DNA from: a virus
DNA length: 20,085 bases
Strand: one strand, 5' to 3'
Virus record (IMG/VR): IMGVR_UViG_3300021139_000204
Location: 1-20,085 of that record
Below are positions 3,434-15,930 of the stretch, piece after piece. Both the position numbers and the translations under genes were made by a program. The notes under the pieces were generated by a model. The model saw only the letters and a program-made list of their open reading frames with translations, searched no databases and had not been told where the DNA came from. Each line of letters starts with the position of its first letter. Position 1 is the stretch's first letter.

Positions 3434-3462
3434 TTGATTCTAACCAAAACTTCATGTATAAT
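3434..3462 (+). promoter_or_regulatory. Candidate sigma70-like promoter before the primase gene
   Basis: TTGATT at 3434-3439 (4 of 6 consensus -35 bases) is separated by 17 nt from a perfect TATAAT at 3457-3462. It sits exactly at the change from adhesin genes to replication genes, where an early promoter would be needed. If used, transcription would start near 3469, so translation would begin at the ATG at 3466 or 3469 rather than 3454, on an almost leaderless mRNA. The -35 is imperfect and AT-rich DNA gives chance matches. Confidence 0.35.
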
Positions 3463-4500
3463 AGCATGATGCTGAACTCGATTCTAGACACTGTTAACAC
3501 ACTACTGCCTGCAAAACGCAAAACAAACTCCACAAGTGGTTGGACCAGTTTCAACGCAGTCTGTTGTCATAATAGAGGCGAAACACAAGATACCCGTGGT
3601 AGGGGCGGAATCATTACAAACCCCAATGGTGCTATCTCTTATAGTTGTTTTAACTGCAATTATACTGCAAACTATACTCCTGGTAGACACTTAAACTACA
3701 AGTTCCGTAAACTACTAAGTTGGCTGGGGGCAGATGACAATACCGTAAAGCGATTGGTGATTGATGCTATACGTATTAAAGAATTAGTTGAGCCAGATCG
3801 AGTAGAAGAAGTAAAAGAAGAAATAACATTTAAGCCCCGACCCTTGCCTGCGGAAGCACAAACATTTCATGCACTAGAAACATTTCATAAATTATCAGAC
3901 AATGCCGATACCCCAATACACCATGATCCTGTGTTGTATATGGCACAACGTGCAATAGATTTACAAAAATATGAGTGTTACTATACCACAGAACAACAGT
4001 ATAATTTACACAAACGAGTTATTATCCCCTTTACTTGGCAGAATGAAATTATCGGATATAGTGCACGAGCATTTGATCCACAAGTAAAGCCCAAATATTA
4101 TAGCCAATACGACGCCAACTATGTGTTTAATACAGATAAACAATTGCCCAACGCTAAGTTTGTAATTGTTTGTGAGGGGCCTATGGATGCTATGAGCATT
4201 GATGGTGTAGCAATATTAAGCAATGAATGTAGCGAACAACAAGCAGATATTATTGACAGCTTGGGACGTGAAGTAATTGTAGTTCCAGATTATGATCGAG
4301 CAGGAATGAAGCTTGTTAGTGATGCACAAGAATTTGGATGGAGCGTCTCTTTTCCATTATGGTTTGGCACATTTAAAGATATCAATGCAGCAGTGATCAA
4401 GTATGGCAAATTGTTTGTGTTAAAAAGCATACTCGAAGCACGGGAATCGAGTCGATTAAAAATCGAGCTCAAGAAGAAAAAATTAAATAATCAATTATGA
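3454..4500 (+). CDS. 61: DNA primase, T4 gp61-type (zinc-binding + TOPRIM)
   Basis: A 348-residue primase-type protein that would make RNA primers for lagging-strand synthesis with the gp41-type helicase encoded next. The N-terminal part has a zinc-ribbon pattern: CCH at about residues 33-35 and CFNC about 30 residues later. A TOPRIM domain follows at about 225-300. It contains FVIVCEGPMDAMS, with the catalytic Glu, and VVPDYDRAG, with the DxD metal ligands. The C-terminus is very basic (KKKK) and may bind DNA. Start choice is uncertain: ATG at 3454, 3466 and 3469 are all in frame and none has a clear Shine-Dalgarno; a TATAAT at 3457-3462 would favour the later ones. Its stop overlaps the helicase start by 4 nt. 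Adjacency of the primase and helicase supports both calls. Confidence 0.88.
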   Translation: MYNSMMLNSILDTVNTLLPAKRKTNSTSGWTSFNAVCCHNRGETQDTRGRGGIITNPNGAISYSCFNCNYTANYTPGRHLNYKFRKLLSWLGADDNTVKRLVIDAIRIKELVEPDRVEEVKEEITFKPRPLPAEAQTFHALETFHKLSDNADTPIHHDPVLYMAQRAIDLQKYECYYTTEQQYNLHKRVIIPFTWQNEIIGYSARAFDPQVKPKYYSQYDANYVFNTDKQLPNAKFVIVCEGPMDAMSIDGVAILSNECSEQQADIIDSLGREVIVVPDYDRAGMKLVSDAQEFGWSVSFPLWFGTFKDINAAVIKYGKLFVLKSILEARESSRLKIELKKKKLNNQL

Positions 4501-5915
4501 CAATAAAAGAATATACACCAGATTTACAAAAGTTATTTTTAGAAATGATGATGCAGGATGCATCAAGTTATGTACGTGTGCAAAACATTTACAATCCCGA
4601 GAACTTTGATCGAAGCCTACGAGCAGTTGCTGAATTCATCAAAACACATACCGATAGTCACAAAACCATGCCCACGCTGGAGCAGATTAAGGCCACAACC
4701 GGAGTTGAACTCAAGCCGGTACCCGAACTAAACGAGGGACACTACGAGTGGTTCATGCAGGAGTTTGAAGGCTTTACCCGACGACAAGAACTAGAACGTG
4801 CTATTTTAAAAGCCGCAGACATGTTGGAAAAAGGTGACTATGATCCTGTAGAAAAATTAATCAAAGATGCAGTACAAATTAGTTTGCAAAAGGATATGGG
4901 AACAGATTACTTTGCAGATCCTGCGGCACGTATCAACCGATATTTTAATTCAGGCGGACAAGTGAGCACAGGTTGGCCACAAATGGATCGACTATTGTAT
5001 GGCGGATTTAGTCGAGGCGAACTTAACATTTTTGCTGGAGGTTCAGGTTCAGGTAAATCGCTAGTAATGATGAACATAGCACTCAGTTGGCTACAAACCG
5101 GACTCAGTGGAGTTTATATTACATTGGAATTGAGCGAGGAACTAACCAGTCTTAGAACCGATGCCATGTTAACCGGGACAGGCACAAAAGACATACGCAA
5201 AGACATTGACACCACCACAATGAAAGTGCGTTTAGTAAGCAAAAAGTCCGGACAGTATAGGGTTAAGGCGTTACCGGCACAAAGCACAGTGAATGATATA
5301 CGCAGCTATTTGAAAGAAGTACAAATACAAACTGGAATACGAGTTGACTTTGTCATGGTGGATTATTTAGACTTGGTAATGCCAGTAAGCGTTAAAGTCA
5401 ATCCCAACGATCAGTTTATCAAAGACAAGTATGTGGCTGAAGAATTACGCAATCTAGCCAAAGAACTAAACATACTATTGGTAACTGCAAGTCAATTGAA
5501 TCGTAGCGCAGTTGAAGAAGTAGAATTTGATCACAGTCATATTGCAGGCGGTATCAGTAAAATTAACACAGCAGATAATGTGTTTGGTATCTTTACAAGT
5601 CGTGCCATGCGTGAGCGTGGCAAGTATCAAATACAGTGTATGAAGTCGAGATCGAGTACTGGCGTTGGGCACAAAATTGATTTAGAGTACAACATTGAAA
5701 CCATGCGCATCACTGATCCTGGCGTAGATGCAAACGAGAACAGTTTTGGCCCACCCAAGGCCAGTATCATGGAACAGATCAAAGACAATCCCCGACAGTT
5801 TATCAAGCCCGAAGCCAAACCTGGACAAGGGCTGGACATGCCCGCAGTCCAGGCCGAAGTGCAAAGTACCAAACTCAAAAGTATGTTGGCTGGATTAAAG
5901 AGCAAAGCGGAATGA
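4497..5915 (+). CDS. 41: Replicative DNA helicase, T4 gp41 / DnaB-type
   Basis: A 472-residue RecA-fold hexameric helicase that would unwind DNA 5'-3' at the fork and partner the primase upstream. Residues 1-130 form an alpha-helical N-terminal domain; the ATPase core starts around 155 (STGWPQMDRLLYGGFSRGEL). Walker A is GGSGSGKS at 181-188 with K187. Motif H1a is YITLELSEE, and Walker B is VMVDYLDL with D289. TASQLNRSAVE matches the DnaB motif H3 Gln segment, and RSSTGVGHKIDLEYN matches the H4 Arg-finger region. The last 50 residues are Pro/Lys/Gln-rich and probably flexible. Length fits gp41. The gene is translationally coupled to the primase (ATGA) and overlaps the next gene by 4 nt. Confidence 0.93.
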   Translation: MTIKEYTPDLQKLFLEMMMQDASSYVRVQNIYNPENFDRSLRAVAEFIKTHTDSHKTMPTLEQIKATTGVELKPVPELNEGHYEWFMQEFEGFTRRQELERAILKAADMLEKGDYDPVEKLIKDAVQISLQKDMGTDYFADPAARINRYFNSGGQVSTGWPQMDRLLYGGFSRGELNIFAGGSGSGKSLVMMNIALSWLQTGLSGVYITLELSEELTSLRTDAMLTGTGTKDIRKDIDTTTMKVRLVSKKSGQYRVKALPAQSTVNDIRSYLKEVQIQTGIRVDFVMVDYLDLVMPVSVKVNPNDQFIKDKYVAEELRNLAKELNILLVTASQLNRSAVEEVEFDHSHIAGGISKINTADNVFGIFTSRAMRERGKYQIQCMKSRSSTGVGHKIDLEYNIETMRITDPGVDANENSFGPPKASIMEQIKDNPRQFIKPEAKPGQGLDMPAVQAEVQSTKLKSMLAGLKSKAE

Positions 5916-6565
5916 ATTTGATTTGCTTCCCTCATTACACCTGTGGTGGATTGCTTTGTGATATTTTTAATAACACATTTTCTGCGGTGGGTGCCAATGG
6001 AGGAATAAGGTCAATTGCGCACTCTTTGGGGAAAATTGGAGACTCCAATGACATACATGATAGCTATGATCCCAACATATTGCATAAACAATTAGAAAAA
6101 ATTCGTGTAGAACAATGGCAATGGATTGGAACCCATTGCCATCCTGTATTATTAGATATAACTAAATTTGATAAAGTACTATTGATTACTACAACTACTT
6201 TTAAAAGTAAACTATATCGATGGATTAGGGCCTATCATCACTATTATTATAATTCTATTCCTTGGAAAAATCTAATGGGTATAGATCGAATAGACAAAGA
6301 AAGAGAAACAGCCAAAAGCTATCTTAAACCATTTTTGCCAATGAGTGCAACAAATGTCATCAATATCGAATTCGCCGAAGTTGTAGAAACTTCCATCGAG
6401 TTTACAAAACTCATCGGGGATGTGGAATTTGACAAACATGTATCTAGATGGAAATCGCTGAATAATTTTTTATATGATAGTGATATTTGGCAAACCACAG
6501 CAGTAAAAAGATTCTACGAGGCCGAATTGGAAGCAAATCTAAACACACACTATCTGTATGAATAA
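5912..6565 (+). CDS. Phage accessory protein, possibly sulfotransferase-like
   Basis: A 217-residue protein. The start MNLICFPHYTCGGLLCDIF resembles the strand-loop-helix at the start of sulfotransferase-like P-loop folds, where 'FPxxTGGxxL' would hold the PAPS phosphate. The middle has IGTHCHPVLL (about 72-82), then KFDKVLLITTTTFKSKLYRWI (about 87-107), a predicted strand followed by a basic helix. The late part has a series of acidic/aromatic helices. This layout is shared loosely with the minus-strand gene at 15927-16571 (FVSFTNGKFIASCL, FYTCHDY, ARVLTVIP). Both are followed by an SGNH-like gene with a short overlap. It starts 4 nt inside the helicase gene yet is more AT-rich than its neighbours, suggesting a later insertion. 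The enzymatic call is inference; glycan or lipid modification is a guess from context. Confidence 0.5.
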   Translation: MNLICFPHYTCGGLLCDIFNNTFSAVGANGGIRSIAHSLGKIGDSNDIHDSYDPNILHKQLEKIRVEQWQWIGTHCHPVLLDITKFDKVLLITTTTFKSKLYRWIRAYHHYYYNSIPWKNLMGIDRIDKERETAKSYLKPFLPMSATNVINIEFAEVVETSIEFTKLIGDVEFDKHVSRWKSLNNFLYDSDIWQTTAVKRFYEAELEANLNTHYLYE

Positions 6566-7250
6566 GATTTTTTGTTTTGGTGATGGGTTTGCTGCAAATC
6601 ATATTTGGCCCGAGTGGCCTGCTATTGTCTCGGCATTGTATCCAAACATAAAACATGAAAATTTTGGTGCAATAGGCGCCGGCAATGAGTTTATATCATC
6701 AGCAATAATTCAAGCACATAAAAAAGATCCAGATGCATTTTTTATAGTGCAGTGGGCCGAATTCAAAAGATTTGATAAATTATTGCAAGATGATTCCTGG
6801 GATGAAATAATAAAAACTGATCCAACTTATTATTTTAATACTGTAATGTTAGGACAACAAAAATGGTGGATCAGCAGCAATAGCAAACAAGAATCCGTAC
6901 AAAAATACCACCAATTTTATGTACAATCTCAACAGGCAAAATTGAGAACCGATAATTACATGTATTTGATATCAAATTTGCTAAAAGATCACGCTATATT
7001 CTTTTCAACTCACGACATGAATATCTATTCAATGCATACTAGATTTGCTGGTACAAGACAGAAAGAAATACAACCTGCGCCCTGGATTCATATGTGTTTT
7101 GTTGAAGAAATAATACTACCAAAAATGCCATTTTTACCATGCCCCAAGCGTCTAGCAATGCTGAAAGATTTAATTCAACAACAATCCTGGGAGGCCTATC
7201 ATTGGGACCGGGACAAAATCTGGAATGATATTGTCAATAGTCTAAATTGA
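6558..7250 (+). CDS. SGNH hydrolase-like protein, probably lacking the catalytic Ser and His
   Basis: A 230-residue protein aligned at its N-terminus with the SGNH protein encoded at 15205-15930: FGDGFA versus GCSFT in block I, IGAGNEFISSAI versus AAAGNQYICDSV in block III (the Gly-Asn at residues 42-43 in both), then QWAEFKRFDKLLQDDSW versus MWSGVTRLDYLTSLDDPAW. In SGNH/GDSL esterases block I carries the nucleophilic Ser; here the aligned position is Gly. The usual C-terminal DxxH block is not visible. It may therefore be a binding protein, or have an altered mechanism. It overlaps the preceding gene by 8 nt and forms a two-gene cassette with it. The DNA is AT-rich compared with the primase/helicase block. 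Confidence 0.6.
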   Translation: MNKIFCFGDGFAANHIWPEWPAIVSALYPNIKHENFGAIGAGNEFISSAIIQAHKKDPDAFFIVQWAEFKRFDKLLQDDSWDEIIKTDPTYYFNTVMLGQQKWWISSNSKQESVQKYHQFYVQSQQAKLRTDNYMYLISNLLKDHAIFFSTHDMNIYSMHTRFAGTRQKEIQPAPWIHMCFVEEIILPKMPFLPCPKRLAMLKDLIQQQSWEAYHWDRDKIWNDIVNSLN

Positions 7251-7285: not shown

Positions 7286-7534
7286 TTGCAAAAGCGAGCC
7301 CGTAGTATATTAGACGAATTGGACACGTTGTTGGTACACAAAGATCGCGAGAATCTAGTGGAATCACGTGCTGCTCATGTTATACAGGGTGCGATCAATC
7401 TCATCAAGTATATACAAGAAAACTATGAACCCGAGCAAGCCATGGAACTAGAGCGTAGATTGCTCAATAGCATACGCACACAAGAACCAGAAAAATTTTC
7501 TCGTGGTATTAGGAAGATCAAAAGTGAAAATTAA
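7286..7534 (+). CDS. Small helical phage protein, unknown function
   Basis: An 82-residue charged, all-helical protein (ARSILDELDTLL, then IQGAINLIKYIQENYEPEQAMELERRLLNSI, then a basic end). No motif is recognised. The start is TTG at 7286: the in-frame ATG at 7274 is followed at once by GAG TAA, and a TGGAG ribosome-binding site at 7275-7279 is spaced 6 nt from the TTG. It is the first gene of a four-gene run ending in the ligase-like protein, with which it probably shares a transcript. It overlaps the next gene by 11 nt. A DNA- or protein-binding helper role is possible but not shown. Confidence 0.7.
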   Translation: MQKRARSILDELDTLLVHKDRENLVESRAAHVIQGAINLIKYIQENYEPEQAMELERRLLNSIRTQEPEKFSRGIRKIKSEN

Positions 7535-7832
7535 AGAAGTAATGTCCGAGGGTTTGCTTGATAAACTGTTAGGACACAAGAGTATCAAGCCCGCGGGTTG
7601 GGACGAATTTCATAAAGGGCAACAACAACGGCTAAAACAGGTCAAAGCCGCTAGCAATGCCACAAAACAAAACGTAAAAATTATTCCGGCAAGTGGAGCT
7701 CATCCCACAATGGCCAAATACAAGAATCAAGACTATGTGCTGGGCAACAATGAAATCTGGTACACCGCCAAGGGACGTCCAGTCACAATTGCCTTGGCAG
7801 CGATCTTGAATCGCGCACTCGAGCAAACATAA
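7524..7832 (+). CDS. Small basic phage protein with MKIKExxxE start, unknown function
   Basis: About 102 residues, basic, with RLKQVKAASNATKQNVKIIPASG in the middle and a compact end (DYVLGNNEIWYTAKGRPVTIALAAIL). I place the start at the GTG at 7524 because AGGAAG at 7511-7516 is a well-spaced ribosome-binding site; a GTG at 7503 is upstream of that site and an ATG at 7542 would remove the first six residues. With this start the protein begins MKIKEVMSEG, the M(K/R)(I/L)xE form seen in several neighbours and resembling the T4 capsid-targeting peptide. Its stop overlaps the next ATG by 1 nt. Function unknown. Confidence 0.68.
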   Translation: MKIKEVMSEGLLDKLLGHKSIKPAGWDEFHKGQQQRLKQVKAASNATKQNVKIIPASGAHPTMAKYKNQDYVLGNNEIWYTAKGRPVTIALAAILNRALEQT

Positions 7833-8605
7833 TGTATCATCTATTCGAAGGCGGTAACGCAATACCCACAAGTAAACCTGTAGATCAAGCGGATGTGCCC
7901 ACTGTGATTGCCACAACCAAACGCGAAATGCCACAGGCGCTATTAAAGAATTTAGAAACCGATATTGGCAGTGCCGGCTTTAAAACTGTGCCCAGTGGCG
8001 ACATTGACCTAATGGTTGATGCCGAAGATGTTGTTGCACTATTTAAAACACAAGATGCCAAAGATCCAGTCAAGGCTGCAAAACAAAGTCTAGCAACTTA
8101 CTTTACAGCAAAAGGCATAGAAGCCAATGTAAACGGACGCAATGTCAGTATTGGAGTAAAATATCCCAAAGGATATGCGCAAGTTGATTTGATGGTTATA
8201 CAAGATGTGCATGTGGTTGCTCCTTGGCATCAACATGGTAGACGTAAAATGTACGCTGATCCCAATTTTAAAGGTGCACATAATTTTATTTTAATGAACA
8301 GTATTGCCAAGCACCTGGGCCTGAAGTTTGATGCATTTGGAGCCAAACTGATGCGTAGAGATGACAACACTGTAGTTGGTCGTACCATGCCCGAAGTTGC
8401 CAAAATACTGCTTGGTGCCAAAGGCAAGGAAAGCGATTTGTACAGTGTGAGCGCAATGATACGAGCGCTTGAAGCCGACCCCGATCGAGAAAGTAAGTTG
8501 GCACAAGCCAGACAAGATGCAGTAAAAGGATTAATAACCTTGCCCGAGGCTGCACCCATGCCAGGAACAGCAGCTTGGTTTAGACACCTAGGCCATAATT
8601 TATGA
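7832..8605 (+). CDS. Nucleotidyltransferase-fold protein (Pol-beta-like NTase)
   Basis: A 257-residue protein with the signature of the Pol-beta nucleotidyltransferase superfamily: G46-S47, then SGDIDLMVD giving D57 and D59 of the DxD metal pair, and AQVDLMV with D119 as the third carboxylate. Such enzymes transfer a nucleotide from NTP/dNTP to RNA ends, proteins or small molecules. PWHQHGRRKMYADPNFKGAHNFIL (about 131-154) follows, and a helical C-terminal half with RALEADPDRESKL. It begins MYHLFEGG, with LFE a possible prohead-protease site. It is coupled by ATGA to the KxDG ligase-like gene, so the two probably act in one pathway such as RNA or DNA end repair; this is inference. The acceptor substrate cannot be told from sequence. 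Confidence 0.75.
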   Translation: MYHLFEGGNAIPTSKPVDQADVPTVIATTKREMPQALLKNLETDIGSAGFKTVPSGDIDLMVDAEDVVALFKTQDAKDPVKAAKQSLATYFTAKGIEANVNGRNVSIGVKYPKGYAQVDLMVIQDVHVVAPWHQHGRRKMYADPNFKGAHNFILMNSIAKHLGLKFDAFGAKLMRRDDNTVVGRTMPEVAKILLGAKGKESDLYSVSAMIRALEADPDRESKLAQARQDAVKGLITLPEAAPMPGTAAWFRHLGHNL

Positions 8606-9678
8606 AACTAGAATTTATTGATAGTATACTGACTGAAGTTGTTGCTGACCAAGGGCCACGTATACCACATCCTGAAGATACCATATTTGATGGATTGGCC
8701 GAAGCACAACGATATGTACAAGCACTTAAAGATGTTATAGCTGACCCTGGTAAAATCTCGATCAAATGGGACGGCGGTATTGCGCTGGTATTTGGTCGTA
8801 AAACTTCGGGCGAGTTCTTTTGTGCCGACAAGTATATGCCCAATAAAGGTGTGCTACCAACTAGTCCTAAACAATGGATTGAATACGATCAAGCACGTGG
8901 TGCAAATCGCAATGATCTATATGAAAAGATTAACACCATCTGGAAAGGACTTGAAGCTGATGTTGTTGCTCCTGGCACCTACAAGGGCGATTTAATGAGT
9001 GTAGGTCCTACCCCTTTAGTTAAGGGCATGTATGAGTTTAAGCCTACTACAGTTACGTATCGTATACCGCCAAAGAGCCCGATTGGAGTGCTAATAGCAA
9101 ACAAGGTAGGAGTACTTGTAGTACATCAAAAAGACGGTGCACCTTGGGACGGGCGAACAGGATTGGCAAATAACGGAGACGTCGCAATTATCAACCCCAC
9201 TGCCGGGCTAAAATTTACACTCAAAGATCCTGTGCAATTAAGTAATGCTGCCACAAAAGCAGTCAACGGACCCGCAGGGCAAGCCGCAGAACAATTTTTA
9301 AAAGGCATGGACGGAGTTGCCCAAGTTGCCCTTAAAAAGTACTTTAACCACAAAATTACCGGACAAACTGCTGAAGACGAGGTCACCTGGTTGCAAAAAA
9401 ACGTGAGCGGAAAACAGTATAAAAATCTAGTGGGCGAAAATCAAGGCGGTTACTTGTATAGAAATGCCAAAGGATACAAAGCTCTTAGAGACACTTGGAA
9501 TGCCATTTACAAATTTAAAGTGGCTCTTGCCAACGAGCTTGAGGCACAGGTCAAGGGATTTGAGCAGTGGACCGGCGGGCAAAAAGCCGGCGAGGGTTTT
9601 GTAGTGGATGCACCCGGAGTGGGACTTATAAAACTGGTAAATCGCGGGGTTTTTGGTCAAGCGCATTTCAACAAGTGA
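8602..9678 (+). CDS. Ligase-like covalent nucleotidyltransferase (KxDG motif), phage family
   Basis: A 358-residue protein. KISIKWDGGIALVFGR (51-66) fits motif I of DNA/RNA ligases and capping enzymes: KxDG with K55 as the predicted AMP-accepting Lys, followed by Arg66. TYKGDLM (127-132) fits motif III, and MYEFKPTTVTYRIP and IGVLIANKVGVLVV lie where motifs IIIa/IV would be. GLKFTLKD around 204-211 is a candidate motif V. The last ~100 residues are helical and basic. It resembles a conserved but poorly described protein of T4-like marine phages. The N-terminus contains SILTE at 8-12, a possible (I/L)xE processing site. The gene overlaps the NTase gene by 4 nt and ends the four-gene run. Strand-joining or end-adenylating activity is inferred. 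Confidence 0.7.
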   Translation: MKLEFIDSILTEVVADQGPRIPHPEDTIFDGLAEAQRYVQALKDVIADPGKISIKWDGGIALVFGRKTSGEFFCADKYMPNKGVLPTSPKQWIEYDQARGANRNDLYEKINTIWKGLEADVVAPGTYKGDLMSVGPTPLVKGMYEFKPTTVTYRIPPKSPIGVLIANKVGVLVVHQKDGAPWDGRTGLANNGDVAIINPTAGLKFTLKDPVQLSNAATKAVNGPAGQAAEQFLKGMDGVAQVALKKYFNHKITGQTAEDEVTWLQKNVSGKQYKNLVGENQGGYLYRNAKGYKALRDTWNAIYKFKVALANELEAQVKGFEQWTGGQKAGEGFVVDAPGVGLIKLVNRGVFGQAHFNK

Positions 9679-9701
9679 TCCCGGGGTTTTTTAGAAAAAG
9701 A

Positions 9702-9708
9702 CTAAATA
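9702..9708 (+). promoter_or_regulatory. T4-late-promoter-like CTAAATA box with 48-nt leader
   Basis: CTAAATA sits 48 nt before the ATG at 9757. The leader ends in a strong Shine-Dalgarno, AAAGGA at 9743-9748, spaced 8 nt. A good ribosome-binding site plus a terminator after the gene suggest a dedicated late unit for an abundant protein. The 78-nt gap holds no gene. Confidence 0.5.
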
Positions 9709-9756
9709 AATGCATGTAGTCCTAGATGGGCTCATTATTTTTAAAGGAAAAACAAA

Positions 9757-10224
9757 ATGGCTATTCAGACAAGATATGTAGGTGACTCAAATGGTATTGT
9801 TAACGTTGACAACAACCTAAACAGCATCGGTACTGGTGCAATTATTGCTACAGGTTTAACAAAGCCTCCAATGGCATTCAAAATTACTGCAACTAGCTCA
9901 GCAGGTAACATTGCTCTAGAAACAGTAACTGGTGGTGCAGTAGAAACAATTCTACGTAACATTGCTATTGATTCTACAGTTGTTATGTACCAAGTTGAAA
10001 CAACTGGCGGTACAACAAGCAATCAACTTAGCGTATTGCTAGAAGCTACTGGTGCAGGTCCTGCTAACAGTGGTTATGGTGCACAGACATTTACACCAAC
10101 TACAGTTGCAACAGCATTGACATCACGTTTACAAGCACTAAACAGTTCTGGTAACATTGGTGTTGCTGGTAACATTTGGGCTGCTGGTATCAGCGTAACA
10201 TCAAGCGGTTTTAAACTAGCTTAA
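9757..10224 (+). CDS. Small probable virion protein, likely highly expressed
   Basis: A 155-residue protein with almost no charged residues, rich in Gly, Ala, Thr, Val, Ile and Asn, predicted all-beta. It begins MAIQTRYVGDSNGIVNVDNN and has many short strands (ETILRNIAIDSTVVMYQVET; SNQLSVLLEATG). No enzyme motif or signal peptide is seen. Codon use is strikingly biased to GGT, GCT, ACA and AAC compared with neighbours, the mark of a strongly expressed gene. It has its own TAAATA box, a strong ribosome-binding site and an intrinsic terminator just downstream, so it forms a one-gene transcription unit. A capsid decoration, tail or other major structural protein is the best guess; the exact position in the virion is unknown. 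Confidence 0.78.
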   Translation: MAIQTRYVGDSNGIVNVDNNLNSIGTGAIIATGLTKPPMAFKITATSSAGNIALETVTGGAVETILRNIAIDSTVVMYQVETTGGTTSNQLSVLLEATGAGPANSGYGAQTFTPTTVATALTSRLQALNSSGNIGVAGNIWAAGISVTSSGFKLA

Positions 10225-10244
10225 TAGTTTTTAAACAGAGAATG

Positions 10245-10268
10245 AAGGCACATTTTTGTGCCTTTTTT
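10245..10268 (+). terminator. Rho-independent terminator
   Basis: An 8-bp perfect stem, AAGGCACA (10245-10252) pairing with TGTGCCTT (10257-10264), closes a TTTT loop and runs into four more T residues. It lies 20 nt after the stop of the small structural gene and ends its transcript. Confidence 0.9.
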
Positions 10269-10276
10269 CTTGGCTG

Positions 10277-10283
10277 CTAAATA
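10277..10283 (+). promoter_or_regulatory. T4-late-promoter-like CTAAATA box, 4 nt before a start codon
   Basis: CTAAATA follows the terminator directly and precedes ATG 10288 by 4 nt (CTAAATACTGTATG). There is no Shine-Dalgarno between them. If this is a promoter the mRNA is leaderless or nearly so. The near-identical arrangement at 11070-11084 (CTAAATAACAGTATG) supports a functional element. Confidence 0.45.
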
Positions 10284-10287
10284 CTGT

Positions 10288-10725
10288 ATGAATGCTCCAG
10301 GCTTACAATTTTTTACAGGTTATACGCTAGTTGATATTACACCAACTCGTGTTATTCGCAGTAGCATACCCGACGATGTCAAACGAAACCAACAACGCAA
10401 TTGGGAAACAGTGTTGCAATGCATGAGCCTGCGCACACAACCCTTGCATATAACCGAGCCCACAATATATCAAGATGTATCTGTAGACCTATTGCGATTT
10501 GGCGACTATTTTGAAGGCAAACACACAATGTGGTCTTGGAGTTGGGCCATTGAAAGTCAAGGAGTTTATGATTTACCCGGCAAACCGCTTGGCGGGCTAA
10601 TGCAAGACTTTGAACAAGTGCCAATCATTACCGGACTAGAAGAAACTGGTAGATTCATGCTTCCCATCTTTTATCCTTATGGTGCTATTAAAAACGTATA
10701 TTTCGTTCAACATCACGAGCAATAA
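10288..10725 (+). CDS. Conserved-looking phage protein, unknown function
   Basis: A 145-residue soluble protein from the ATG at 10288. A GTG at 10258 would extend it upstream but lies inside the terminator stem, so it is rejected. The sequence is aromatic-rich with several distinctive segments: LQFFTGYTLVDITPTRV, MWSWSWAIESQGVYDLPGKP and GRFMLPIFYPYGAIKNVYFV. There is no membrane segment, signal peptide or known catalytic motif. The gene stands at the head of a run of small genes extending to 12950 and is preceded by a TAAATA box, which points to late, virion-related expression. I do not recognise the family. Confidence 0.72.
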   Translation: MNAPGLQFFTGYTLVDITPTRVIRSSIPDDVKRNQQRNWETVLQCMSLRTQPLHITEPTIYQDVSVDLLRFGDYFEGKHTMWSWSWAIESQGVYDLPGKPLGGLMQDFEQVPIITGLEETGRFMLPIFYPYGAIKNVYFVQHHEQ

Positions 10726-11791: not shown

Positions 11792-12511
11792 ATGAGACTC
11801 TCTGAAATGCATACCGAGGTTACACCTCAAAAAATTAACCGAGTTATGGAAAGCCGTTTTGGTTTTAGCATAGACTATGATAATTTGACTTATGCCAAGG
11901 CACAACGCCTGCACAAAGCCATTAACGAAAACATGAATAATATTCGTAAAAGTTTTGGCGCACATACAGTGGAGAAGAATCCCAAGTATGTAGAACTGAT
12001 GCTGGTTCGTGAGGGCCTAGACAAATGGCTACACAGCGAACAAGGTTTGTTTGAAAGTGAAATTGGTGCCAGTGAAGCACGTCTTGCTGCACAAGACATT
12101 GTGGACTCGATTCAGGACATGATGGAAAAAATCGGCAAGATGCAGAACGAACAGGTACCGGCTCTTATTGCCACCATACGTGATCAAATTGGTATGGAGC
12201 AAAGCGAAGCGTTTAAAACCGCAGTTAAACCAATACTAGATACACTGTATCAAGCAGTGGTATCAAGTCAAGAACAGGCCGAGCAGGCAGTTTTACAATT
12301 GGCCGGAGAAGCTGCTCCTGCTGGTGATATGAATATGAATTTGGGCGCACCCGATGAGACAGGTCTAGGCGGAGATGCTATGGCACCAGAAATGGGTGAT
12401 GATACCGGAACACCTCCTCCCGAAAGCGACCTAGACAACGCTGAAGATGGATTTGATGCAACTGATGCTGCCGCTGGCGGTAGTGCAACTCTAGGACGTG
12501 GCCGTCGCTAA
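11792..12511 (+). CDS. Probable internal/structural virion protein with acidic C-terminal tail
   Basis: A 239-residue protein beginning MRLSEMHTEV, with LSE at residues 3-5 and a second Glu at residue 9, close to the T4 capsid-targeting form. Residues about 10-70 are a helical domain (ESRFGFSIDYDNLTYAKAQRLHKAINENMNNIRK), followed by an extended helix bundle with Gln/Glu-rich coiled coil (QDIVDSIQDMMEKIGKMQNEQ; YQAVVSSQEQAEQAVLQLAGE). The last 65 residues are acidic and low in complexity (Gly, Asp, Pro, Met, Glu) and end GRGRR. Helical core plus acidic tail suggests a scaffold, prohead-core or internal protein. Unlike T4 gp22/gp67 I see no specific family signature. The gene follows by 1 nt and is followed by another of the same start type. 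Confidence 0.72.
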   Translation: MRLSEMHTEVTPQKINRVMESRFGFSIDYDNLTYAKAQRLHKAINENMNNIRKSFGAHTVEKNPKYVELMLVREGLDKWLHSEQGLFESEIGASEARLAAQDIVDSIQDMMEKIGKMQNEQVPALIATIRDQIGMEQSEAFKTAVKPILDTLYQAVVSSQEQAEQAVLQLAGEAAPAGDMNMNLGAPDETGLGGDAMAPEMGDDTGTPPPESDLDNAEDGFDATDAAAGGSATLGRGRR

Positions 12512-12512
12512 C

Positions 12513-12950
12513 ATGAGAATTAACGAAATAATTTTTGAGAGCAAAGACTACCCTGAGTTTGACTCAGAGGTAAACAGTCCCATCGAGGACGAGGCTGACA
12601 CCCGCGGTGATGCAAGTTTGATTACTGCTCTTGAATATTTGCGCAACGAAGCTGAACAAAGCAATGCAGTGACACCACGTGTCAAAGTAGACACTGTGAT
12701 AAATCGTGTGCGTGCCATGCCCGGAAATGAAGCATTTAACTATGCTGCTCTTGACAAAGCGCAAAAAGACAATGAAACAGTAAAGAGCATGATCAAACGT
12801 ATTGAAGATGATACCCACACCGGGGACAAATACGTTTATCTTGCTCCTGCCGAAAACACCGTTGACACCGGCGGTGACGGAGCAACCGATCTTGATAATG
12901 ATAAATCATCCAAGATTGTGAGTAGCATGGCCAAGCGTGCCGCCAGCTAA
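12513..12950 (+). CDS. Acidic phage protein with MRINE start, unknown function
   Basis: A 145-residue acidic protein. The ATG at 12513 is chosen over the upstream GTG (12498) because it starts 1 nt after the previous stop and gives MRINEIIFES, with INE and IFE matching the (I/L)xE cleavage rule of T4 gp21. Residues about 40-95 are helical (SLITALEYLRNEAEQSN; VDTVINRVRAMPG; NYAALDKAQKDNETVKSMI). The end is Asp/Gly-rich, then SSKIVSSMAKRAAS. It shares the start type and acidic character of the preceding gene and is probably its functional partner. It is the last gene before the sigma70 promoter of the cargo unit. Function unknown. Confidence 0.7.
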   Translation: MRINEIIFESKDYPEFDSEVNSPIEDEADTRGDASLITALEYLRNEAEQSNAVTPRVKVDTVINRVRAMPGNEAFNYAALDKAQKDNETVKSMIKRIEDDTHTGDKYVYLAPAENTVDTGGDGATDLDNDKSSKIVSSMAKRAAS

Positions 12951-13328: not shown

Positions 13329-13460
13329 ATGAAACTACGCAAACTGCGCCGTAAGTTATATGTCGCCATCTTTAGACACGATGTCAAACGTGAAAAGAAA
13401 CTTTGGTACAAAATTCTAAAAAAATCTATTAAACACAAACACACCCAGGATGTACAATAA
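13329..13460 (+). CDS. Very basic 43-residue protein, unknown function
   Basis: A short ORF of 43 codons lying 1 nt after the previous stop and sharing its last base with the iscU ATG. About 40% of residues are Lys, Arg or His (MKLRKLRRKLYVAIF at the start, KKSIKHKHTQ near the end). This exact fit between two genes, without gap, argues that it is translated. It could bind nucleic acid or an acidic partner. There is no Shine-Dalgarno beyond coupling from upstream. No family is recognised. Confidence 0.55.
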   Translation: MKLRKLRRKLYVAIFRHDVKREKKLWYKILKKSIKHKHTQDVQ

Positions 13461-13846
13461 TGGCCTACTCGGAAAAAGTTATTGATCATTACAACAATCC
13501 CAGAAATGTAGGATCATATAAAAAAGGTGAAGAGGGAGTTGGCGTAGGGCTCGTAGGAGCACCATCGTGCGGTGACGTTCTTCAATTAAGTATAAAGGTA
13601 GAAAATGGTATTATTAGAGATGCTCGTTTCAAGACATATGGATGCGGTTCAGCGATCGCTTCTAGTTCACTCATTACCGAATGGCTCAAAGGGCGAACAC
13701 TGGATCAAGCGAGCAGTATCAAAAATAGCGACATCGCTGAGGAACTTGCTCTCCCACCAGTCAAAATCCACTGTTCAATCCTTGCCGAAGACGCCATCCG
13801 GGCGGCGGTAGCAGATTACAAATCCAAGTATGATCACGCTAACTGA
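13460..13846 (+). CDS. iscU: IscU iron-sulfur cluster scaffold protein
   Basis: A full-length (128-residue) IscU. It builds [2Fe-2S] clusters from sulfur supplied by IscS and passes them on with HscA/HscB. All key residues are present: GAPSCGD with C37 and D39, YGCGSAIASSS with C62, and LPPVKIHCSILAEDAI with the HscA-binding LPPVK motif (98-102) and C105. The start MAYSEKVIDHYNNPRNVGS and the end VADYKSKY are almost the same as the E. coli protein from memory. Codons (CTC, ATC, GCG, TTC) look more host-like than those of neighbours, suggesting recent transfer. It overlaps iscA by 17 nt. No iscS, hscA, hscB or fdx is in the window, so it must depend on host partners. Confidence 0.96.
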   Translation: MAYSEKVIDHYNNPRNVGSYKKGEEGVGVGLVGAPSCGDVLQLSIKVENGIIRDARFKTYGCGSAIASSSLITEWLKGRTLDQASSIKNSDIAEELALPPVKIHCSILAEDAIRAAVADYKSKYDHAN

Positions 13847-14153
13847 AGCGGCTACAAATAAAATAAAAAAATTATTAGAAAAACGTGGCGGCGTTGGTAT
13901 TCGCCTTGGGGTTAAAACAACTGGGTGCAGTGGTTTAGCATACGTACTAGAATACGTAGATAAGTACATGGAGGATGCTAACACAATCAACTATGCACAA
14001 AACGATTTTTCAGTTTTTGTAGATAAAAAGAGTGATGTATATCTAACAGGCATGACTGTGGATTATGTTCGAGAAGGCCTTAACGAAGGTTTCAAATTTA
14101 TCAACCCCAATGAACGTGACCGGTGTGGGTGCGGTGAAAGTTTTCGAGTATGA
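13830..14153 (+). CDS. iscA: IscA-type A-type Fe-S carrier
   Basis: A 107-residue A-type carrier (HesB/IscA/SufA family) that receives clusters or iron and hands them to target enzymes. The three ligand cysteines are present: TTGCSGLAYV (C33) and RCGCGESF (C99, C101). The segment VREGLNEGFKFINPNERD between them is typical of IscA. Length equals that of bacterial IscA. The ATG lies 17 nt inside iscU, so the pair is translationally coupled and keeps the chromosomal iscU-iscA order. ErpA or SufA are alternatives, but order and sequence favour IscA. The stop overlaps the next gene by 4 nt. Confidence 0.93.
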   Translation: MITLTEAATNKIKKLLEKRGGVGIRLGVKTTGCSGLAYVLEYVDKYMEDANTINYAQNDFSVFVDKKSDVYLTGMTVDYVREGLNEGFKFINPNERDRCGCGESFRV

Positions 14154-15241
14154 TAGCAATATATAGCGATAGTCAAATAATAGATCTAGAGTGGATACCC
14201 AATGCAAATATCCCGCAACCAAATACAGTTTACCACACCTACGAAGAATATGTAAACAGTACCGCTGAATATAAAATAGCATTTACTACACAACGACTGC
14301 ATTGTGATTATGATATCAATTGTACTGCTTATCGAGGATTTGAAGATAAGATAAACAAACTGAGTGCAGTCAGCACATTGGTGTTTACCATTGAAAGCGA
14401 GCTACACGATTTTCATTGGCGCATGTGGGAACTGTGTTATCATGACAATGTGTATTGGGTCGTGCCCGGACAAGTCAATGACAGTGGCATGAGTAAAAAT
14501 ATCATACACTGGGCCGATTGGTTTAAAACAACAGTGGCCCTGTATCGCAAACTGCCCGACATAGTTGCAAAATTTGATTATACTGCCACAAAGTCTCGAT
14601 ATTTTGATGCATTATTAGGCAGTCCCAAACCACATCGAGATTTTGTCAATGCACAAGTTATAGCAAACAATCTACAAGATAAGTTTATTATGACCTATGG
14701 CGGACAGTGGAATGACAATGAATTTTATGCCAAAGACTATTTTATATGGGAACCAGGAACTACAGCGGTTGAAGACAACCAACCAGGTACTGCAGGTTAC
14801 GTGGAATATTTTGGCAATAGATGCCATTTGAGTCAAGTTATTCCGCTAGATGTTTTTAATAATACTGCCTACAGTATAGTTGCTGAAACCGACTTTGACA
14901 ATACTCTAAGTTTTTTTAGTGAAAAAACGGCCAAGCCCTTGATTTATCGTAGACTGTTTGTTGCATTCAGTGGGTACAAGTTTCTACAAAATTTACGTGA
15001 TCTAGGATTTAGAACATTTGACAACGTCATTGATGAAAGTTATGATTTGATCAAGGATGATACAGCACGACTTACGGCAGCATTTGAACAGGTAAAATAT
15101 TTGTGTTCAGTTCCGCAGTCAGAAATATTTTCACAGATTGCCACTACATTGGATCACAATTATAATCTAATAATGTCCACTGATTGGACTCGACGTGCTG
15201 CACATCAGATCAGCGACATTATTGTTTCGGCCCAGCGTTGA
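14150..15241 (+). CDS. Glycosyltransferase-like protein (GT10-like C-terminal motif)
   Basis: A 363-residue protein. The N-terminal ~130 residues are an alpha/beta domain (MIAIYSDSQIIDLEWIP; VSTLVFTIESELHDF; DNVYWVVPG). In the second half, FFSEKTAKPLIYRRLFVAFSG (E258), DLGFRTFDNVIDESYD (ending at 299) and a helical end form a pattern shared with the minus-strand gene at 16564-17649. The 'SEKTxKP ... hhhhG' segment resembles the donor-binding motif of GT10 fucosyltransferases (TEKLxxAL..VPVVLG). Many marine viruses carry related genes. It is last in the cargo unit, coupled to iscA by ATGA. Its 3' end overlaps the SGNH gene on the opposite strand by 37 nt. Sugar transfer to host or virion glycans is inferred. 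Confidence 0.6.
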   Translation: MIAIYSDSQIIDLEWIPNANIPQPNTVYHTYEEYVNSTAEYKIAFTTQRLHCDYDINCTAYRGFEDKINKLSAVSTLVFTIESELHDFHWRMWELCYHDNVYWVVPGQVNDSGMSKNIIHWADWFKTTVALYRKLPDIVAKFDYTATKSRYFDALLGSPKPHRDFVNAQVIANNLQDKFIMTYGGQWNDNEFYAKDYFIWEPGTTAVEDNQPGTAGYVEYFGNRCHLSQVIPLDVFNNTAYSIVAETDFDNTLSFFSEKTAKPLIYRRLFVAFSGYKFLQNLRDLGFRTFDNVIDESYDLIKDDTARLTAAFEQVKYLCSVPQSEIFSQIATTLDHNYNLIMSTDWTRRAAHQISDIIVSAQR

Positions 15242-15930
15242 TTGGCCAGCGCTCCGGGATGAAATCCATCAGGCATAAAACTGCCTAGCTCCTTGGCCAT
15301 TTCGTATATTCCATCTCGATTGGAATTAGAAAATATCCATTTGTCAAAATCTATTTCGTTCAAGAGATAGTTTAACTCGGCATATTTGTAAACTCCAAAG
15401 TCTCCATTGGGACTTACGTTGTCCTGTCGATTCCAATAGTTAACATAACTCATGAAGTGAAAGGGAATATTTTTTGCAGTCAGGTAGTTTTGTAGTTTGA
15501 CTATTTCTTGTAAATTGATAGTGGCAAGGCTCAACTCGCTTGACACTTTGTACATTTCGTAAAACATCTTGTGTGCCACAGGATTTTTAAACCAAGTGCC
15601 CATTTGCCCTCCGCTAAAGATGTAGCCCAATTTGTCTCCAGGAATGCGTCGATAAAATCCATAACTGTCAAACAGTTTGTTCCACGCTGGATCATCTAGA
15701 CTGGTCAAGTAATCCAAACGAGTAACACCGCTCCACATTACCAATACATGATCGGGACGTGATGCAGCAACACTTCTAATTACACTATCGCAAATGTACT
15801 GATTACCGGCAGCTGCTTCGGCCACATTGGTAATATTATGATTTGTAATATATCGCGGCCAACAGATATTAGGACCTCCGGGCGATTCGGGCCATTGTGT
15901 AAAACTACATCCTGATATTAATAGGTTCAT
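15205..15930 (-). CDS. SGNH/GDSL hydrolase-like protein with intact catalytic residues
   Basis: A 241-residue protein with the SGNH order: block I ISGCSFT with S9 as nucleophile, block III AAAGNQYICDSV with G42-N43, a VLVMWSGVTRLDYL strand, and DGFHP near the C-terminus with D221 and H224 as the DxxH pair. Such enzymes are esterases or O-acetyl/acyl-transferases acting on carbohydrates or lipids. It is the third gene of a minus-strand operon with a glycosyltransferase-like and a possible sulfotransferase-like gene, so adding or removing acyl groups on a glycan is a reasonable inference. It has a paralogue at 6558-7250 whose catalytic residues look lost. It overlaps the upstream gene by 4 nt and ends inside the convergent plus-strand gene. 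Confidence 0.75.
   Translation of the reverse strand: MNLLISGCSFTQWPESPGGPNICWPRYITNHNITNVAEAAAGNQYICDSVIRSVAASRPDHVLVMWSGVTRLDYLTSLDDPAWNKLFDSYGFYRRIPGDKLGYIFSGGQMGTWFKNPVAHKMFYEMYKVSSELSLATINLQEIVKLQNYLTAKNIPFHFMSYVNYWNRQDNVSPNGDFGVYKYAELNYLLNEIDFDKWIFSNSNRDGIYEMAKELGSFMPDGFHPGALANQRWAETIMSLI

Follow-up and report, generated by a model that had tools for sequence, protein, structure and literature searches.

A PolX-like nucleotidyltransferase paired with a DUF6267 ligase-like protein in large phages: a candidate head-packaged repair module

Viral repair modules that combine a polymerase with a ligase are already known. The giant algal virus Phaeocystis globosa virus encodes PgVPolX, a PolX-ligase fusion that fills and seals gaps (PMC5537341), and the particle of African swine fever virus (ASFV) carries a polymerase, a ligase and an AP endonuclease (PMC12172490). 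Some jumbo phages place the Pol-beta-superfamily nucleotidyltransferase RlaP beside an ATP-grasp RNA ligase, Rnl1 or Rnl2 (PMC7824862). In phage T4, a capsid-targeting sequence of ~10 residues steers internal proteins into the head, where the prohead protease gp21, cleaving behind glutamate, trims short N-terminal peptides off them (PMC9958956, PMC3012670, PMC5694885). Here we analyse a 20,085-nucleotide stretch of viral DNA (IMG/VR record IMGVR_UViG_3300021139_000204; ‘the window’ denotes this whole stretch), in which the gene for a Pol-beta-like nucleotidyltransferase (NTase) overlaps the gene for a protein of the Pfam family DUF6267. We lean, if only slightly, towards reading the two products as a gap-fill-and-seal pair that is packaged in the phage head and ejected together with the genome; head packaging by way of a T4-type leader would probably be the new feature relative to the modules described before.

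Unlike PgVPolX, whose ligase is NAD-dependent and which has lyase activity, the phage pair combines a predicted ligase of ATP-type fold, from the separate family DUF6267, with a predicted polymerase that lacks the 8-kDa domain. ASFV Pol X, also a minimal PolX without the lyase domain, is the best structural match of the NTase, but ASFV is an animal virus that encodes its enzymes in separate genes, and its packaging route is not known to use a T4-type leader and protease. The likeness to RlaP with Rnl1 or Rnl2 lies in the juxtaposition, in large phages, of a Pol-beta-superfamily NTase and an ATP-grasp ligase; however, the window NTase does not match the RlaP model PF10127, the DUF6267 protein does not match Rnl1 or Rnl2, and some genomes hold both systems. 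As in the T4 internal proteins IPI-III and Alt, both window proteins begin with a predicted leader of ~10 residues ending in glutamate; the T4 leaders are cleaved by gp21 and the cargo is ejected with the DNA, but that cargo comprises inhibitors and an ADP-ribosyltransferase rather than repair enzymes, and cleavage and packaging of the window proteins are predicted from sequence. Finally, the DUF6267 (phrog_455) proteins of T4-like cyanophages belong to the same family and share its invariant motifs, yet they are leaderless, paired with a HIGH-type nucleotidyltransferase and annotated as hypothetical.

Folds, invariant motifs and fusion of the two proteins

A preliminary description of this DNA had placed a GS...DxD...D motif of Pol-beta-type NTases in one gene and the KWDG and GDL motifs of covalent nucleotidyltransferases in the next, the two overlapping by ATGA. 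Gene order, overlap and motifs are all as described, and the conservation of the residues shows that the motifs are not there by chance. In the NTase alignment, 61/61 relatives share G46, D57, D59 and D119, and every one of the 61 has serine or threonine at position 47; in the DUF6267 alignment, K55, D57, G58 and D130 are invariant in 55/55. Structure prediction and comparison recovered, for both proteins, folds in which these residues take the catalytic positions.

The NTase model (predicted local distance difference test, pLDDT, 89.6) retrieved Pol lambda and mu with Foldseek (E 2.7e-5 for Pol lambda) and ASFV PolX as the best match with VIA (Z 9.2, 156 residues, root-mean-square deviation 3.5); family-X polymerases are the sole class among the structure matches listed by the two. 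The model has the palm and the thumb and lacks the 8-kDa lyase domain, as does ASFV PolX. None of the libraries searched names this PolX-like family: Pfam, NCBIfam, PHROG and PADLOC scans assigned no functional family to the NTase or to the small gene ahead of it, and when bacterial and archaeal genomes were scanned once with the NTase profile, no relative came up.

The downstream product falls into Pfam DUF6267 and into phrog_455, both without an assigned function, and no mention of DUF6267 was found in the literature searched. By similarity, its relatives occur in 240 phage records. All 54 alignment rows that span E331, G332 and K344 have these residues, which adds motifs IV and V to the preliminary description and nearly completes the ligase signature. 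The model is confident (pLDDT 93.3; predicted template modelling score, pTM, 0.90), and VIA listed RNA or DNA ligases in 50 of 50 matches (Z 5.5–7.5). Taken together, conservation and models make it very likely that the two proteins are, respectively, a Pol-beta/X-like NTase and a ligase-type covalent nucleotidyltransferase. A DUF6267 profile scan of bacterial and archaeal genomes picked up contigs of two metagenome-assembled genomes (L195, PALK01000009.1, and L196, NZVD01000088.1), binned as Rickettsiales and Rhodopirellula and possibly mis-binned phage.

The two domains are encoded in one open reading frame (ORF) in 54 cases, with the NTase first. We base fusion claims on non-iterated profiles only, because iteration drew NTase sequence of the fused proteins into the DUF6267 model. 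After removal of near-duplicates, 79 distinct NTase loci remained. In 50 the NTase is fused to DUF6267, in 19 the two are no further than 3.5 kb apart (with many of the genes overlapping), five are on truncated contigs and five are unlinked. When a match had to cover 80% of the fused form, none of the isolate phages in the collection qualified. In the distant jumbo phages Atu_ph07 and Phosso a relative of the NTase is paired with a different, KLDG-type ligase-like protein in reversed order. Since the partnership is kept across reversed order and fusion, it points to function and not to mere neighbourhood, and we regard functional coupling of the NTase and DUF6267 as very likely on this genomic evidence. 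Structure models, invariant motifs and gene fusion thus agree with the earlier proposal of a Pol-beta-type NTase coupled to a covalent-nucleotidyltransferase protein and distinct from T4 Pnkp/Rnl1; the fusions themselves, like the leaders treated below, had not been part of it.

Related enzymes turned up around these loci. Several freshwater relatives carry a second Pol-beta-like NTase (GSSAYH...GDIDLQM...VQIDFMW, ~340 residues) with a leader of its own, MRDIILE/GG (here and below, the slash marks the predicted cut), usually between the NTase and DUF6267 (L007, L019 at 728-1762, L025-L027, L058, L060, L063, L064, L066 and L067); it matches no library family. In the Lak phages L056 and L057 (5863-6840), with TAG read as Gln, an NTase relative stands alone, with no ligase seen within ~6 kb on each side. 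Phage PA5oct (L051) encodes an apparent divergent ligase, gp256 (8119-9459; KIDG ... EVLYG ... EGYVIRTPSMQVKIVDK), three genes ahead of an NTase relative detected by mass spectrometry, and its gp255 (9460-10479) has an SSEFGG motif like that of the protein ahead of DUF6267 in AG-345-P14.

Cleavage-like sites and the case for head packaging

Across 81 distinct NTase N-termini, a cleavage-like site precedes GGN or SSH (MYHLFE/GGN in the window), with glutamate at P1 in 81/81, leucine, isoleucine or valine at P3 in 81/81 and 12 different residues at P2. The site rule of gp21 places isoleucine or leucine at P3, i.e. (I/L)-x-E. Standalone DUF6267 proteins start with sequences of the type MKLEFIDSILTE/V or MLLEFITTLTE/G. 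In fused proteins, [I/L]-x-E recurs in the linker just ahead of DUF6267 in 52 of 54, compared with 1.8% of 2,408 control windows taken from other parts of these proteins; fusions of a gene-2-type region to the N-terminus of the NTase retain LTE/S at the junction, and one N-terminal fusion to DUF6267 retains LAE/A. The leader segments are modelled with low confidence in both proteins, while the domains are confident. At the level of sequence, these leaders and linkers match the T4 prohead-protease and capsid-targeting signal.

Of 20 relative records, 9 encode a protease of the gp21 family (PF03420); above 160 kb, the only record without it has 168 kb. The annotation of PA5oct gp253, a relative of the NTase (E 5.6e-9), records its detection in virions by electrospray tandem mass spectrometry (ESI-MS/MS); within the pair, this concerns the NTase relative only. 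In a 354-kb relative, a broad version of the leader pattern is enriched at gene starts only weakly (29/427 versus 17/426), owing to crude start calling; a T4-like version, given below, fared better. Judged from these signals, cleavage and packaging of both proteins in the head are reasonably probable.

The strongest competitor, which we consider possible but clearly less probable, keeps the same enzymes and leaves them unpackaged: they would serve intracellular repair or replication, and the [I/L]-x-E segment would have a structural explanation, as a strand at the N-terminus or as part of the linker. The position of the cluster beside primase and helicase genes and the absence of a leader from cyanophage DUF6267 both suit this explanation. 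It sits less well with a fixed P3/P1 pattern around a free P2 at the N-termini of the NTase, DUF6267 and the second NTase and at three kinds of fusion junction, with the low confidence of both leaders in the models, or with the annotation of a related NTase in PA5oct virions.

Leader-like starts were also seen on other proteins. A little behind the ligase-NTase pair of Atu_ph07 (L055, 8667-12804) lie tandem paralogues, ADP-ribosyltransferase-like by eye, with the leaders MRWHQLIE/, MKWHQLTE/A and MRWDQLTE/A; the one paralogue checked has no Pfam match, and they are possibly ejected effectors like T4 Alt. In the cyanophage locus L049 (9989-12044), the HIGH-type cytidylyltransferase adjoining DUF6267 starts with MKKFSAFLTE/A, which resembles a capsid-targeting sequence.

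Layout of the locus and neighbouring genes

The cluster consists of four ORFs, all on the plus strand (Table 1). ATGA (8602-8605) is common to the end of the NTase gene and the start of the DUF6267 gene, and gene 2 overlaps the NTase gene by one base (TAATG). The preliminary description spoke of two small unknown genes ahead of the pair; this holds for gene 2, for which no family was found, whereas gene 1 has a PHROG assignment. Co-occurrence of all four genes is likewise borne out in part: gene 1 is syntenic, lying directly or nearly directly behind the helicase gene in PA5oct, GAP32, Phosso, Atu_ph07 and Vibrio phage 2.275.O, but gene 2 is variable, and a larger gene-2-type region is joined to the NTase in the relatives L021, L022 and L024.

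Table 1. Positions of genes, predicted leaders and motifs in the window
Feature	Position	Strand	Basis or remark
Primase, DnaG-type	3454-4500	+	phrog_47
Replicative helicase, DnaB-type	4497-5915	+	
Gene 1, 82 residues	7286-7534	+	phrog_11854 ‘virion structural protein’, E 5.5e-16; TTG start behind GGAG; 43 phage records
Gene 2, ~102 residues, start 7503 or 7524	7524-7832	+	No family; leader-like N-terminus VKIKEVMSE/G
PolX-like nucleotidyltransferase, 257 residues	7832-8605	+	
NTase, predicted cleavable leader MYHLFE/ before GGN	7832-7849	+	Residues 1-5 pLDDT <50
NTase, active-site segment G46-S47 ... G56-D57-I58-D59	7967-8008	+	Alignment
NTase, third catalytic aspartate D119 (Q-V-D-L-M)	8186-8188	+	Alignment
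DUF6267 (PF19782) protein, 358 residues, predicted ligase-type covalent nucleotidyltransferase	8602-9678	+	Pfam E 1.4e-24
DUF6267, predicted cleavable leader MKLEFIDSILTE/	8602-8637	+	Residues 1-17 pLDDT <50; short helix 4-10
DUF6267, motif I K55-W-D-G, predicted AMP-accepting lysine	8764-8775	+	Alignment
DUF6267, motif III-like G129-D130-L, Asp in place of the classical ligase Glu	8986-8994	+	Alignment
DUF6267, motifs IV and V, E331-G-F-V ... K344-L-V-N-R	9592-9645	+	Alignment
Two more genes with leader-like N-termini	11792-12950	+	MRLSEMHTE/V at 11792; MRINEIIFE/S in 12498

Further downstream, the gene at 11792 has a relative among phage virion structural proteins, and judging by their leader-like starts it and its neighbour are possible fellow head cargo. 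The window also holds an overlapping pair of Fe-S cluster scaffold genes, NifU_N/IscU (13460-13846, E 1.7e-49) and IscA-type Fe-S_biosyn (13830-14153, E 4.4e-21), as well as two genes, at 6558-7250 and, on the minus strand, 15205-15930, whose products have GDGF/SGCSF starts and by eye look like SGNH-type hydrolases, with no Pfam match at E 0.01.

Proposed mechanism, rival explanations and implications

In the mechanism we propose, the NTase would act as a minimal family-X-type polymerase that adds nucleotides at the 3' end, and the DUF6267 protein as an ATP-type polynucleotide ligase in which K55 accepts AMP and which then seals the nick. Inside the assembling head, a T4-type prohead protease would trim the leaders and split fused forms at [I/L]-x-E, leaving the expected N-termini GGNAIP... 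for the NTase and VVADQG... for DUF6267. The mature enzymes would leave the head with the genome and repair the phage DNA on its arrival, at gaps, nicks or ends, before the phage genes begin to be expressed. The generalisation that large phages carry a head-packaged PolX-like/DUF6267 polyprotein, cut by the prohead protease and injected as a repair kit that acts before phage expression, we put forward more tentatively.

Several observations tell against this proposal. At the level of enzyme class, the NTase matched none of the Pfam NTP-transferase and PolX models at E up to 10; the window DUF6267 protein gave no credible match to the Rnl1, Rnl2 and ATP-dependent DNA ligase models PF09511, PF09414 and PF01068, matching DUF6267 only, and profile searches of PDB sequences with both families returned nothing credible. 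The motif III residue of DUF6267 is an invariant aspartate, D130 in G-D-L, where ligases usually have glutamate. Foldseek alone was not significant on the DUF6267 model (best E 0.15), and the VIA scores (maximum Z 7.5) are middling when each is taken singly. At the level of coupling and packaging, no ligase was detected with five of the NTase loci; the DUF6267 proteins of cyanophages are leaderless; PA5oct gp253 is a divergent relative whose start shows no obvious leader; no prohead protease gene is found in the window record, which spans only 20 kb. Genome-wide, the T4-like leader pattern, selected post hoc after inspection, is only modestly enriched (15/257 gene starts versus 7/668 internal sites, p 8e-5), and avoidance of protease sites within the mature domains is inconsistent, being present in the NTase and not in DUF6267. 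Because the sequence profiles miss the Pfam polymerase, ligase and RlaP models, we call the NTase ‘PolX-like’ and the DUF6267 protein ‘ligase-like’. A single Z of 7 might reflect no more than a widespread structural arrangement, but this is unlikely here, since all 50 listed matches belong to one superfamily and the motif set is nearly complete. PDB-sequence matches to cap-repeat and AVO1 were rejected as spurious.

We consider DNA the likelier substrate, though by no wide margin: RNA ligases and DNA ligases score much alike against the DUF6267 model, and RNA therefore stays in contention. Repair of RNA, in which the NTase would restore nucleotides lost from cleaved tRNA and DUF6267 would reseal it, a scheme suggested for RlaP and Rnl-type ligases, strikes us as rather unlikely; we retain it because RlaP and the RNA ligase of jumbo phages are the nearest known phage analogue. 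The nominal top scores of the DUF6267 model are RNA ligases (Naegleria, TbREL1 and T4 Rnl1), jumbo phages have established pairs of RNA ligase and Pol-beta NTase (PMC7824862), and the ligase-like partner in Atu_ph07 has a weak Pfam RNA_ligase match (E 9.8e-4). Yet RNA and DNA ligase matches tie to within ~1 Z unit, and the NTase, which does not match RlaP, has its nearest model matches in the PolX enzymes that fill gaps in DNA. Moreover, Atu_ph07 and Lak-A2 encode a separate RlaP elsewhere, the Rnl1 and RlaP models found no match in the ten IMG/VR records searched, the RNA_ligase matches among IMG/VR records, confined to G005 and G006, fall on the gene for the conventional DNA ligase, and the window contains no tRNA gene. 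More broadly, matches to PF09511, PF09414 and PF01068 in the IMG/VR relatives lie in other places of the genome or are lacking. The suggestion in the preliminary description that the pair repairs damage from a tRNA-cleaving host defence is not established: the fold of the NTase model points to gap filling on DNA, the cluster follows primase and helicase genes, and none of RlaP, Rnl1 and Rnl2 turned up in the IMG/VR relatives searched.

A role outside repair, with DUF6267 adenylylating or capping another target and the NTase being of a regulator type, is improbable. The partner of DUF6267 in cyanophages is indeed a HIGH-type (NMNAT/cytidylyltransferase-like) enzyme, a CTP_transf_like domain adjoins DUF6267 in Syn33, and the phrog_455 profile appears to span both domains; but DUF6267 has a nearly complete set of ligase motifs and ligases alone among the structure matches listed, and the NTase retains the family-X palm and thumb. 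That the phage uses DUF6267 as its own ligase for DNA replication, with the NTase as an accessory, would fit its position next to primase and helicase, but we reject it as highly improbable because relatives encode separate ligases elsewhere, a conventional ATP-dependent DNA ligase (~440-470 residues) in 9 of 15 records searched, most of the large relatives among them, and an NAD-dependent ligase in Atu_ph07, Phosso and Lak-A2. Non-homologous end joining by Ku/LigD was likewise rejected, as Ku (PF02735) was not found in 15 relative records, some of them partial.

With this analysis DUF6267, which is widespread in phages and has no function in Pfam, gains a concrete, if predicted, enzyme class. 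The findings suggest that the same polymerase-plus-ligase repair module has evolved in phages as in giant eukaryotic viruses, and that in some phages it enters the cell together with the DNA. Should ejected enzymes repair genomes as they arrive, this would amount to damage repair or to counter-defence at an early stage.

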